Shown piece after piece: positions 46,726-51,625 of a DNA stretch of 64,000 nucleotides. Made by a program: the position numbers and the translations under genes. The stretch is from a halophilic archaeon SHRA6 (GTDB lineage: Archaea; Halobacteriota; Halobacteria; Halobacteriales; Haloferacaceae), in NCBI GenBank assembly GCA_005239175.1, contig SOPS01000004.1:496001-560000 (forward strand). Direction: 5' to 3'. The first letter of the stretch is position 1. Every line of letters starts with the position of its first letter. The notes beneath the pieces were generated by a model. It made no database searches and was not told where the DNA came from. It saw nothing but the letters and a program-made list of their open reading frames with translations.

Positions 46726-47856
46726 TCACTCGTTGATATCGAGTGTCGCTTCGAGTGCCGGGAAATTAATCGCTTCCATCTGATCGATGTATCCCCAGCC
46801 GTCCTCGTTCCACTTTGGAGTGCTGCCCGCGGCAGTGGTCATTGCAATAGTCTCGGTCGCGTCGCTCTCGGAAACGATCTGTTCGGCGAGCCGATCGGAC
46901 TCAAAGTAGCCGTAGGCGATGTGAGAGATTCCTTCCTCGTTTACGAGTTCGATCGTGTCAATGATATCCGAGCTCGTTGGTTCGTCCTGCGGGGACACAC
47001 CCTGTGGGGAGTGAACCGAGAAGCCGTAGCGATCGGCGAGATAGCCAAACGAGTTGTGTCCGCCAAACACGATCGTGTCTGTCTGTCGATCTGCGAGCAT
47101 TGATTCGAGGCGCTCGTGAAGATCCTGAAGTTCCGATTTGTACGCCTCCGCGTTTTCGAGATACACCGCTTCGTTATCGGGATCGGCTCTGGCCAACCCC
47201 TCGGCGATGTTGTCAACACACTTTTGCGCGCGGATGGGATCGACCCAGACGTGCGGGTCTAATTCGCCGTCGTGTTCGTGGTCGTCTTCTTCGCTGTGGC
47301 TATCGTCCTCTTGATGATCGCCGTCTTCATCGTGGGTGTCCTCCTCATCGTGGGTATCCTCCTCGTTGTCGTGATCGTCTTCTTCCTCATGATTGTCTTC
47401 TTCCTCATCATGGTGATCGTCTTCTTCTTCGTGACCATGCTCCGCACCAAACTCAAGCATATCGACACCCTCCAGAGCATTGATGAGGACGGTCTCGGTA
47501 TCCTCGCCGTCGATCGATTCGGCGGCTTCCTGTGCCCACCGCCACTCGGGGTTGTCGAGATAGATGAACACGTCGGATTCGGCGATCTGAGTCTGGAGAT
47601 CAGCGGTCGGCTCCCATCCGTGGCCCAGCTCTCCCGCAGGAACCGGATCGACAATTTCCATCTCCTCGCCGGCGACCTGCTGGGCCCAATCGGCGAGCGT
47701 GAAAAACGCCGCGAACCCGCCGCGGCCGTCAGGAGCTGTCGCTTCTGTATTCCCTGAAGCGTCGTCGTCCTCGGTGCCGTCGCCAATACACCCCGCAAGG
47801 AGGCCTGCAGTGAGTACACCTGACCCCTGTAGTACTGCGCGTCGCGTGTGGTTCAT
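46726..47856 (-). CDS. Metal ABC transporter substrate-binding lipoprotein (ZnuA-like)
   Basis: Cluster-9 (TroA/ZnuA) binding protein of 376 residues. It has a Tat-like start (NHTRRAVLQ), hydrophobic core and lipobox LLAGC, so it is lipid-anchored outside the cell. The domain begins AAFFTLADWAQQVAGEEMEI. A long His/Asp/Glu-rich insert lies at about residues 137-200 (many DDHHDEEED, EEDDHEHDG units). It precedes LDPHVWVDP, which carries the first conserved ligand His, and VFGGHNSFGYLADRYGFS carries the second. The insert is the usual ZnuA zinc-collecting loop, here made very acidic. Start of the operon. Confidence 0.93.
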   Translation of the reverse strand: MNHTRRAVLQGSGVLTAGLLAGCIGDGTEDDDASGNTEATAPDGRGGFAAFFTLADWAQQVAGEEMEIVDPVPAGELGHGWEPTADLQTQIAESDVFIYLDNPEWRWAQEAAESIDGEDTETVLINALEGVDMLEFGAEHGHEEEDDHHDEEEDNHEEEDDHDNEEDTHDEEDTHDEDGDHQEDDSHSEEDDHEHDGELDPHVWVDPIRAQKCVDNIAEGLARADPDNEAVYLENAEAYKSELQDLHERLESMLADRQTDTIVFGGHNSFGYLADRYGFSVHSPQGVSPQDEPTSSDIIDTIELVNEEGISHIAYGYFESDRLAEQIVSESDATETIAMTTAAGSTPKWNEDGWGYIDQMEAINFPALEATLDINE

Positions 47857-48713: not shown

Positions 48714-49028
48714 TCACTCCCCAGAGCCTGCGCTCCCATCCGCGTCGATTCGTGATTCGTACTTCTCGATCGATCCGGCCAGTGCGGCCTCCGCCTCGAT
48801 GTCGAGTTCTGTACCGAGTGCCAACAACGCAAATAATGCGTCGCCGTACTCGTCGGTGCTGACAGAAATTGCCGACGGATCGGTTCCGTAGCCGCTTGAT
48901 TTGGCCGCATCGGCAGCCATCTCACCTACCTCGGCAGTCAGATCGAGAAGCCGGTAGGCGGGCGGCGCGTCGAGCCCGTGTTCGTCGGTGAACGGAGCAA
49001 CACGTTGCTGGGCGTCGAGAAGAGACAT
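48714..49028 (-). CDS. MazG-like nucleotide pyrophosphohydrolase
   Basis: The 104-residue all-alpha NTP-pyrophosphatase has LLDLTAEVGEMAADAAKSSGYG and TDEYGDALFALLALGTELDI; the ExxE and ExxD pairs coordinate Mg2+. Such proteins clean non-canonical NTPs. The start at 49028 is chosen since the conserved fold begins there and a longer frame has no similarity. It diverges from the DUF5797-type gene. Confidence 0.85.
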   Translation of the reverse strand: MSLLDAQQRVAPFTDEHGLDAPPAYRLLDLTAEVGEMAADAAKSSGYGTDPSAISVSTDEYGDALFALLALGTELDIEAEAALAGSIEKYESRIDADGSAGSGE

Positions 49029-49125
49029 ACCAATCGACTCAATCGGCTCGCAGAAATCGGTACCGATCGATTGCGGAGCCGATCGGATCCGGAAACAAAT
49101 TAACCGCCCCCTCCGATCCACCGGT

Positions 49126-49629
49126 ATGAGTCTCTCCGATGAGGAACGCGATCGGCTGGCAGACATCGTAGAGTTACAGCCGACAAAAAACAAAGAGTTG
49201 CAGGACCGCTGGGGGCTCGAAAGCGGCAGTGACGTACACAGATATCTCGAAGGGCATCTCAAGGAGTTCTACTATCGCGACGACAACAGTCTGATCAGAG
49301 CGACGACGGAGGCGAACGATCTGGTCGATGTTGAACCAGGAATCGTCGACGATGACGAGGATGGTGTGCCAGACTCGATCCGGGTTGAGCCACTTGAGGC
49401 ACAGATTTTCGAGGTCCTTGCTGGGCCAGACGATCGCTCACAGAGCGTCGTCAGCGTCTTGCAGTCGCTTCGATCGACCCACGACATCGACCCCGACGTG
49501 GAGTCGGTTCGCCGCGGTCTGCAGAGCCTCAAACGCAAGGGCGTCGTCGAGGTTATCTATCGGACGGTTCCGACATTCCGGCTGGCTGTCGAGCGTGACT
49601 CGATCGAAGTCGACATCATCGACTCGTGA
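49126..49629 (+). CDS. DUF5797-like haloarchaeal protein (winged-HTH appearance)
   Basis: The 167-residue protein has MSLSDEERDRLADIVELQPTKNKELQDRWGLESGSDVHRYLE, consistent with one wHTH domain, YYRDDNSLIRAT (wing-like), an acidic linker VDDDEDGVPDSI, and a second HTH-like domain (SVVSVLQSLRSTHDIDPDVESVRRGLQSLKRKGVVEVI). I associate this with DUF5797. I infer DNA or RNA binding from the tandem HTH-like units. It converges on the DUF5787-type gene. Confidence 0.75.
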   Translation: MSLSDEERDRLADIVELQPTKNKELQDRWGLESGSDVHRYLEGHLKEFYYRDDNSLIRATTEANDLVDVEPGIVDDDEDGVPDSIRVEPLEAQIFEVLAGPDDRSQSVVSVLQSLRSTHDIDPDVESVRRGLQSLKRKGVVEVIYRTVPTFRLAVERDSIEVDIIDS

Positions 49630-49658: not shown

Positions 49659-50657
49659 CTATGAGCGATCGCGCTGCCGGCGTCGCCGTTCACGAAGGAG
49701 CCTGACGACTGATTTGCCCGGACCGCCCTCAATGGGAAAGTTTCGCGTCCGCCATATCGGTGGCTCAGGCTCAAAGGCCGGACAGGATCCAGAACATTCC
49801 CGTGGCGTCGGAAGTGTCCCCTTCGCTGCACAGGCGGGAAGCAGCGCACGGCCGTCGCGCTCGAGTTCGAAATGCCGGCAATCGGGACGCATTGTCCGAT
49901 GATACGATCGAAACCCACGGCCGTAGGCCCGCTCTGCGAGCACGAGTCGCTTCGTCACCGATCGCTGCCCGCCTTTGATCTCCCTGTCAGCGTCCGAGCG
50001 GATGGCTGATGGGTACCAGTCGACTCGGGTGGAGTCAGCATCGACACCGTCGGCAAACGAACACGAGAGCACGCCAACCTCAACTGGAAACGCCTTCAGG
50101 AGCGCCGGCGAGACTGACCCATCCGTATCAGCGGTCGCGACCCAGACCTCGTCAGCTAACCGTGCGCGGACGTCGTGGGTGAGCTGGTCGGACAGCGCTC
50201 GTGCCGCTGCGGCGTCCAGATCGGGCTTGTTTTCAATCGCGACGATTCGGTTCACCCAGTCAGGATACCGGGCGATCCGTTTGATTTCGATCCGGTTGCC
50301 GCGTTTTCTCGTCTTGAGCAGTCCCCGATCGGCCGCGCGGTGGATCGACTCGCGGACGTATCGCCACGGATAGCCCGGATGATCGATGGCGTCGCGATAC
50401 CACGTCCACTCCGCGGGCGCGTGGACGAGGACGTCGAGCAAATCGCCGTCAATTTCATCCGAGCCAAAGGCCGATCGGGCCGCGAGCCCTACAGGATCGC
50501 ACTCGATAATAACGGTGTCCCAGCGCCGTCGCTTGGTGCCGATCTGGCGGGCGACGATCGCGTGGCCATCGACATTCATCTGGCGCTCCCACGCGAGTTC
50601 GGCCCATCGACAGACCCGGAGTTCGAAGGCGAACTCCGAATCGTTCCATCCGGTCAC
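49659..50657 (-). CDS. DUF5787-like protein with PD-(D/E)XK and Cas4-like cysteine pattern
   Basis: The 332-residue protein has a PD-(D/E)XK motif in YPDWVNRIVAIENKPDLDA (D133, E142, K144), followed by a helix with QLT. An N-terminal Cys (C16 in RVCRWAELAWE) is paired at the C-terminus with C260, C276, C288 and C292 (RPDC, LPAC, RECSGSC). Cas4 and AddB nucleases place one N-terminal and three C-terminal Cys around a [4Fe-4S] cluster, just as here, with one extra. I know it as DUF5787, of unknown function. Nuclease activity is inferred. A basic C-terminus (RERRRRQRDRS) suits DNA binding. Confidence 0.75.
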   Translation of the reverse strand: MTGWNDSEFAFELRVCRWAELAWERQMNVDGHAIVARQIGTKRRRWDTVIIECDPVGLAARSAFGSDEIDGDLLDVLVHAPAEWTWYRDAIDHPGYPWRYVRESIHRAADRGLLKTRKRGNRIEIKRIARYPDWVNRIVAIENKPDLDAAAARALSDQLTHDVRARLADEVWVATADTDGSVSPALLKAFPVEVGVLSCSFADGVDADSTRVDWYPSAIRSDADREIKGGQRSVTKRLVLAERAYGRGFRSYHRTMRPDCRHFELERDGRALLPACAAKGTLPTPRECSGSCPAFEPEPPIWRTRNFPIEGGPGKSVVRLLRERRRRQRDRS

Positions 50658-50684: not shown

Positions 50685-51128
50685 TTAGACGTACTCTTCG
50701 TTTTCGTTTTTTAATTCATCGAGGTACTCGTGGGCCTCTTCGAAGATCTCTCGCGGTCCGTCTTGGGTGATCGTGTTGAGCGCCTGTTCGTAGTCGCGCC
50801 ACTGCAGGTCGCGGTGTTCTTTCGAGAGTTCTGCGCTGGCTTCGAACGAATGGGCGATGAACAGATGAACCGTCTTGTGAATCGTCGTCCCATTCGCCTC
50901 GAACACGTAGTCGTAGTCCTTGCGGAACCCGTCGATGAGGCGGAAGTCCTCGATGCCCGCCTCCTCCTGTACTTCTCTGATCGCGGTTTGCTGAAGCTCC
51001 TCGTCCCCTTCGACACCGCCTTTGGGGAACTCCCAGTCCCCCGGTCGGCTCTTCAGGAGCAAATACTCCCGGTGGCCGCGGGTGTCGCGGAAGAGGATCG
51101 CTCCAGCACTCACTGCCTCTACCGTCAT
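50685..51128 (-). CDS. NUDIX hydrolase (bis(5'-nucleosyl)-tetraphosphatase-like)
   Basis: The 147-residue NUDIX protein has the box GGVEGDEELQQTAIREVQEEAGI complete (Gx5Ex7REUxEExGU), preceded by SRPGDWEFPKGG, typical of Ap4A hydrolases. It ends with an acidic Asn/Glu tail. The start at 51128 is just before VEAVSAGAILFRD, where the fold begins. It lies 27 bp upstream of the DUF5787 gene in the same direction. Confidence 0.92.
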   Translation of the reverse strand: MTVEAVSAGAILFRDTRGHREYLLLKSRPGDWEFPKGGVEGDEELQQTAIREVQEEAGIEDFRLIDGFRKDYDYVFEANGTTIHKTVHLFIAHSFEASAELSKEHRDLQWRDYEQALNTITQDGPREIFEEAHEYLDELKNENEEYV

Positions 51129-51292
51129 TAACCACGAGTAAGCAACCCCATCGTAAGAGCGTATCGGAGCACAGAACAGAGATAGATCAGATGACCGGCG
51201 TGTGAACGGCTGGCGCGGGTTTGCTTCTCGCGGGCGATCGGGGTAGGTGCGTTTTTTACGCTTGCCGACCACAGAACGGATACGACCGCACA

Positions 51293-51625
51293 ATGGCTTT
51301 CGTTACAAAACTCCGATTTCAGTCCGGCGACCGTACTGTCCTTGAAAACACCGTGACCGAGATCAAATCGATCGTCGAGCGCAAAGGCGGCGAGTGCAAA
51401 GGCCCACACTCTGCGCCGCCCGATCGACTCTTCGTCCCTCAGCAACAGACGCTCGCACCCGGCGAGAGCTTCCCGGACTGGGAGTACACCGTCTACACCC
51501 GCAAGATGGAGATCCACAACGCCGATCACATCGCCAGACAGGTCGGACACATGGACTTCCCTGACTCAGTACACGTCGAGATCGAGGTTGAGCAGAAACG
51601 ACCGCTCGGACACCGAAGTAACTGA
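51293..51625 (+). CDS. uS10-like ribosomal protein paralogue
   Basis: The 110-residue protein resembles ribosomal protein S10 (uS10/mL48 fold): TKLRFQSGDRTVLENTVTEIKSIVERKGGECKGPHSAPPDRLFVPQ and WEYTVYTRKMEIHNADHIARQ, ending DFPDSVHVEIEVEQKR. True haloarchaeal S10 lies in the tuf operon; this solitary gene is probably the known haloarchaeal paralogue of unknown role. A TTTTTTAC element precedes it. Confidence 0.85.
   Translation: MAFVTKLRFQSGDRTVLENTVTEIKSIVERKGGECKGPHSAPPDRLFVPQQQTLAPGESFPDWEYTVYTRKMEIHNADHIARQVGHMDFPDSVHVEIEVEQKRPLGHRSN

Follow-up and report, generated by a model that had tools for sequence, protein, structure and literature searches.

MmcB-like proteins (DUF1052), a recognised PD-(D/E)XK family whose motif is AD-ExK, are short, single-domain proteins of about 160 residues (PMC1189080). 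In the restriction enzyme PaqCI, the catalytic triad is D54/E73/K75 (PMC10201449). Cysteines add a further element in Cas4, where protein Pcal_0546 combines one N-terminal cysteine with a C-terminal C-x2-C-x5-C motif (C64, C200, C203 and C209; PMC4176176). The restriction enzyme NotI is described in the same paper, through a citation, as holding a mononuclear iron in a Cys4 site.

A haloarchaeal gene whose product recalls these systems is found in the window, i.e. the whole stretch of 64,000 nucleotides that was analysed.

49659..50657, minus strand: DUF5787 protein, paralogue A, 332 residues; predicted PD-(D/E)XK nuclease bearing a winged-helix insert and, at the C-terminus, a Cys4 module

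The open reading frame noted at 49659-50657 in an earlier, sequence-only reading exists and has 332 codons, but it lies on the minus strand and begins with GTG (residue 1 in the numbering used here); the plus-strand frame at these positions is interrupted by stops. The product matches Pfam family PF19100 (DUF5787) with 341 bits and an E value of 6.9e-102, exceeding the gathering score of 25 bits, and its earlier assignment to this family stands. NCBIfam and PADLOC searches with the protein give no match, and PDB searches by sequence and by profile return chance matches only. NCBIfam, PDB sequence and profile searches and Pfam scans of homologues contain no sequence-level match to a known nuclease. 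The family, earlier described as having no known function, is named in no paper of the literature searched for 'DUF5787'. A second member, paralogue B, is encoded in the same genome (G000:C2:991269-992057; L112:1387-2346, minus strand) and shares its D, ExK and Cys4 residues with paralogue A. DUF5787 proteins are probably haloarchaeal metal-dependent PD-(D/E)XK nucleases, with a D47/E142/K144 site, a winged-helix insert, a Cys4 module and two paralogues devoted to core maintenance.

Predicted fold and conserved active-site positions

The AlphaFold model of the protein, computed from 80 aligned sequences, has a pLDDT of 83.7 and a pTM of 0.82 (model residue n corresponds to residue n+1 of the protein). 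It runs from helix 1 through strand 1 and strand 2, which bears D47, to a domain of ~65 residues, and then into strand 3, which leads into E142-N-K144. A helix with Q158 and D162, strands 4 and 5, further helices and a cysteine-bearing hairpin follow. The predicted domains are located as follows.

50490..50636, minus strand: nuclease core, first half, residues 8-56; helix 1 (E8, E12 and E20 invariant), strand 1 (R37, Q38, G40), strand 2 (R44, D47)
50262..50456, minus strand: winged-helix domain, residues 68-132; between the two catalytic strands, with many winged-helix matches
49992..50258, minus strand: nuclease core, second half, residues 134-222; strand 3 (E142-N-K144), helix with Q158/D162, strands 4-5 (T175, P191, G195)

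In a Foldseek search of the PDB, the best match is PaqCI at a weak E value of 0.02, and none falls below 0.001. A second-look aligner (VIA) places on the core 3DNX (SPO1766), with 143 of 146 residues aligned and a Z of 10.1, and PaqCI, with Z of 9.8 and 9.1; values of about 10 exceed the background of 7-8 given for the aligner by only a modest margin. XisH proteins 2INB and 2OKF are placed there as well, with 111-112 residues aligned, rmsd of 2.6-2.7 and Z of 7.8 and 7.7. The first of these structures, 3DNX, we take to be a member of the MmcB-like/DUF1052 family (PF06319). Matches on the core, as opposed to the insert, therefore come from PD-(D/E)XK proteins of three different families. The insert itself, residues 68-132, is matched by dozens of winged-helix chains (Z 7.4-8.7, rmsd about 2-3). 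Cas4, AddB and Dna2 are not among the structural matches listed for the model, an absence that excludes nothing.

The best viral structural match of the model is also an MmcB-family protein. A profile of the core, with the insert removed, scores 22.8 against seven MmcB-like phage proteins, close to the maximum of 21.7 reached by shuffled controls in 40 trials; it aligns the ExK motif and the later proline/glycine region, but D47 does not fall on the MmcB acid. Since this score is barely above the controls, neither homology to the phage proteins nor membership of the MmcB family is claimed, and a shared fold is proposed. Pfam scans of 80 homologues yield no PF06319 match.

The active site was approached with an alignment of 111 paralogue-A orthologues, to which 30 paralogue-B members were added. 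All 141 sequences share E8, E12, E20, R37, Q38, G40, R44, D47, R61, P132, W134, E142, N143, K144, P145, L155, Q158, D162, T175, P191 and G195, together with the cysteines C260, C276, C288 and C292. Two features among them are candidates for the catalytic site.

50517..50519, minus strand: D47, proposed first catalytic acid; invariant (141/141), core strand 2
50226..50234, minus strand: E142-N143-K144, ExK half of the putative active site; invariant (141/141)

The residues listed in the sequence-only reading (P132-D133-W134, E142-N143-K144, C16, C260, C276, C288 and C292) are all present as placed, and its choice of E142 and K144 as active-site residues agrees with their identity in every homologue of both paralogues. 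D133, the acid that it had taken from the PDW motif, is another matter. It is aspartate in 103 of the 111 paralogue-A and 22 of the 30 paralogue-B sequences, a variability by which it was ruled out as catalytic acid, and its choice was very probably wrong. In contrast, D47 is invariant and sits on the core strand before it in the model. Judged from conservation, the catalytic acid is therefore most likely D47. Thus, a conserved acid and a (D/E)xK motif occupy adjacent core strands, D47 on strand 2 and E142/K144 on strand 3 of the predicted model.

Collectively, three families as whole-core matches and an invariant D...ExK on the right strands make the case for a PD-(D/E)XK fold good, if indirect. 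The model supports a core of the order helix-strand-strand-[insert]-strand-helix-strand; the restriction-endonuclease-type core anticipated by the sequence-only reading is thus borne out at the level of prediction, the two catalytic strands being separated by a winged helix. A non-catalytic binding protein could likewise account for the invariance across DUF5787; in it, fold and winged helix would serve DNA binding only and the Cys4 module would act as a redox or metal sensor. Such a regulator-like role would agree with the resemblance of the winged helix to MarR/ArsR/Fur-type regulators and with the conserved cysteines. It is very unlikely: degenerate members of the PD-(D/E)XK families usually lose catalytic positions, and here all three are kept without exception in both paralogues.

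The C-terminal cysteine module and basic tail

Beyond the nuclease-like core, the protein contains four invariant cysteines, and a fifth lies in helix 1.

49782..49880, minus strand: Cys4 module, C260-x15-C276-x11-C288-x3-C292; identical in all 141 sequences, modelled as a beta hairpin with a short helix
50610..50612, minus strand: C16 in core helix 1; conserved in 138/141, serine or alanine in three

The sequence-only reading had seen in C16 and three of the C-terminal cysteines the one-plus-three plan of the [4Fe-4S] iron staple of Cas4 and AddB. The importance of the cysteines is upheld, and the plan is not. Spacing is C-x15-C-x11-C-x3-C in paralogue A and C-x12-C-x12-C-x3-C in the own-genome paralogue B, as against C-x2-C-x5-C in Cas4. 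C16 is replaced by serine in two Halobaculum sequences (L077 and L098) and by alanine in one B sequence, all of which keep C260, C276, C288 and C292. Because the four are invariant and C16 is replaceable, the metal site most likely consists of the C-terminal Cys4, and C16 is probably not an essential ligand, as far as conservation can tell. A RecB-like nuclease of the Cas4, AddB and Dna2 kind, whose [4Fe-4S] cluster would be held by C16 together with three C-terminal cysteines, is accordingly quite unlikely. The predicted PD-(D/E)XK core, the location of C16 on the helix before it and a Q158-L159 pair after the ExK strand, reminiscent of the RecB motif QhXXY, would suit it. The spacings, the sufficiency of the four invariant cysteines for a site and the invariant aspartate (D162) at the place of the motif's tyrosine argue against it.

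A likely Cys4 site at the C-terminus leaves the choice of metal, where an iron-sulphur cluster and zinc or mononuclear iron are about equally probable. The Cys4 may simply bind a structural zinc, or a mononuclear iron as reported for NotI, and the protein would then be an ordinary nuclease to which a winged helix and a zinc finger are added; the chances of this reading as a whole fall somewhat short of even. Four cysteines around a predicted beta hairpin and a short helix recall many zinc modules. In Pfam scans, 45 of 80 homologues weakly resemble DUF7140 (best E 0.001), whose own-genome member ends in another Cys4, and NotI, as cited in PMC4176176, is a precedent for iron bound by Cys4 in a restriction enzyme. 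On the other side, the module modelled alone (pLDDT 56, a low-confidence model) gives no fold match, although a model of this quality is uninformative. In addition, histidine replaces a C-terminal cysteine in none of the 141 sequences, a constancy more typical of Fe-S than of zinc ligands. DUF7140 is a short family, and in the own genome its Cys4 module forms the C-terminus of a membrane protein (L166:589-1629, C1).

The protein ends in a basic tail, as the sequence-only reading had observed.

49662..49718, minus strand: basic C-terminal tail, residues 314-332; 9 K/R and 2 D/E

The tail, 19 residues long, is net positive in 93% of the paralogue-A homologues. With 56 K/R and 49 D/E, the whole protein is non-acidic for haloarchaea, most of its neighbours in the window being acidic. 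Such a near balance of charges in an acidic proteome is as expected of a nucleic-acid-binding protein.

Paralogues, gene neighbourhood and possible role

DUF5787 proteins occur in 289 of 292 genomes of the class Halobacteria, nearly all with at least two copies; the three genomes that lack them measure 1.9-2.3 Mb. Of 97 genomes, 96 have a match to paralogue B. The two paralogues separate cleanly into clades, with identities of 26-41% between and 52-100% within them, which indicates a duplication older than the sampled haloarchaea with both copies kept. In a wider sample of the phylum outside Halobacteria no relative is found; the single weak match, in the zinc-knuckle region of a methionyl-tRNA synthetase, was judged a chance match of cysteines. 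The viral contigs and phages searched contain no DUF5787, and plasmids yield one record, an 828-kb Natronorubrum plasmid.

The neighbourhood of paralogue A is equally stable and comprises two genes that recur across genomes.

50685..51293, minus strand: NUDIX hydrolase, diadenosine-tetraphosphatase type; 27 bp upstream of the DUF5787 gene, start probably ATG at 51128
51299..51625, plus strand: uS10-like protein, Pfam E 3e-12; its gene points away from the NUDIX gene in 78/80 loci

Paralogue A lies downstream of the NUDIX gene on the same strand in all 80 loci, and within 200 bp in 69 of them. The nearest PDB matches of the NUDIX protein are Ap4A hydrolases. In 20 neighbourhoods of paralogue B, no NUDIX gene is conserved on the same strand; a convergent gene of beta-lactamase fold is found near it in 13 of 19.

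Other genes nearby deserve mention. The uS10-like protein scores below the curated uS10 equivalog score and is probably a paralogue of ribosomal protein S10. A weak MazG-like gene is located at 48714-49262 (minus strand), so that genes of nucleotide house-cleaning type, this one and the Ap4A-type NUDIX gene, flank the DUF5787 gene on both sides within 1.5 kb. A DUF5797 protein (E 2e-81), which also matches a helix-turn-helix weakly, is encoded at 48988-49629 (plus strand); its gene converges on the DUF5787 gene in 47 of 80 loci. Further away, at 46726-47856 (minus strand), lies the gene for the binding protein of a zinc-type ABC transporter, next to the ATPase and permease genes; the protein has a very long insert rich in His, Asp and Glu.

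Two ancient and near-universal paralogues, the absence of viral and phage copies and the NUDIX pairing point to core DNA or RNA maintenance rather than defence. The suggestion of a 'repair or defence nuclease' can thus be divided. Repair or another core maintenance of nucleic acids is plausible. A defence nuclease directed against viruses or plasmids is highly improbable: the fold is common among restriction and defence enzymes, and PaqCI, a restriction enzyme, is the nearest whole-core structure of known function, but DUF5787 is a near-universal chromosomal gene, vertically kept in a fixed neighbourhood, with a single plasmid record and no PADLOC match.

A serious rival to DNA maintenance, albeit an unlikely one, is a catalytic role in the metabolism of RNA 5' ends or of nucleotides, exerted together with the Ap4A/NpnN-hydrolysing NUDIX protein, for example to remove or break down Np4N-capped or damaged RNA. 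The DXO/Rai1 RNA decapping family has the same PD-(D/E)XK fold, and the pairing with a NUDIX protein closest to Ap4A hydrolases is constant. Ap4A itself occurs in Haloferax volcanii (PMC8646023). Conversely, the winged helix and the nearest structural relatives (PaqCI, MmcB-like proteins and XisH) act on DNA or are linked to it, and the lack of a conserved same-strand NUDIX partner for paralogue B speaks against this role.

In the preferred reading, a nuclease of core maintenance, D47 on strand 2 and E142/K144 on strand 3 would form the active site and cleave phosphodiester bonds in a metal-dependent manner. The winged helix between the catalytic strands would contact DNA beside the cut site. 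The Cys4 module may bind a single structural metal, be it iron-sulphur, mononuclear iron or zinc, and together with the basic tail could help to hold or recognise the substrate. A and B would have separated before the haloarchaeal radiation and, since both are kept, probably serve core genome maintenance on different substrates. Paralogue A is probably co-transcribed with the NUDIX gene. It is tempting to go further and propose a haloarchaea-specific pair of core nucleases with an inserted winged helix and a self-contained Cys4 Fe-S site, unlike the split iron staple, one paralogue being the partner of an Ap4A/Np4N hydrolase. This precise combination is rather improbable; if true, it would tie stress-nucleotide or RNA-cap metabolism to nucleic-acid cleavage through the partner of paralogue A. 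Core roles are to be expected of two paralogues present in nearly all sampled members of a genetically tractable class, and the predicted triad and metal module, the DNA-binding insert and the constant gene partner allow function to be tested directly in H. volcanii.

Comparison with known systems

MmcB-like proteins share with DUF5787 the PD-(D/E)XK core and the D...ExK order, and 3DNX is the best whole-core structural match. They differ by the lack of an inserted winged helix and a Cys4 module, are found in bacteria and phages, and show no significant sequence or profile similarity to DUF5787. The endonuclease domain of the Type IIS enzyme PaqCI has the same core and the same D...ExK order once the DUF5787 insert is removed. 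Unlike in DUF5787, its catalytic D and E stand 19 positions apart and no winged helix intervenes, and it is a restriction enzyme with a separate target-recognition domain. XisH proteins have structurally the same core, but these cyanobacterial proteins are small, consist of a single domain and lack both insert and Cys4.

Cas4, AddB and Dna2 resemble DUF5787 by a PD-(D/E)XK core, conserved cysteines and a glutamine after the ExK strand. The cysteines are arranged differently, Cas4 having one N-terminal cysteine and three closely spaced ones, and DUF5787 four C-terminal cysteines with long spacers. The RecB motif QhXXY corresponds to Q158-L159-x-x-D162, in which the glutamine is invariant and the tyrosine has become an invariant aspartate. 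The inserted winged helix sets DUF5787 apart from all three. NotI, as known through its citation in PMC4176176, parallels the predicted metal site by its Cys4 with mononuclear iron. DUF5787 would thus add to the PD-(D/E)XK nucleases a branch that bears an inserted winged helix and a Cys4 module.
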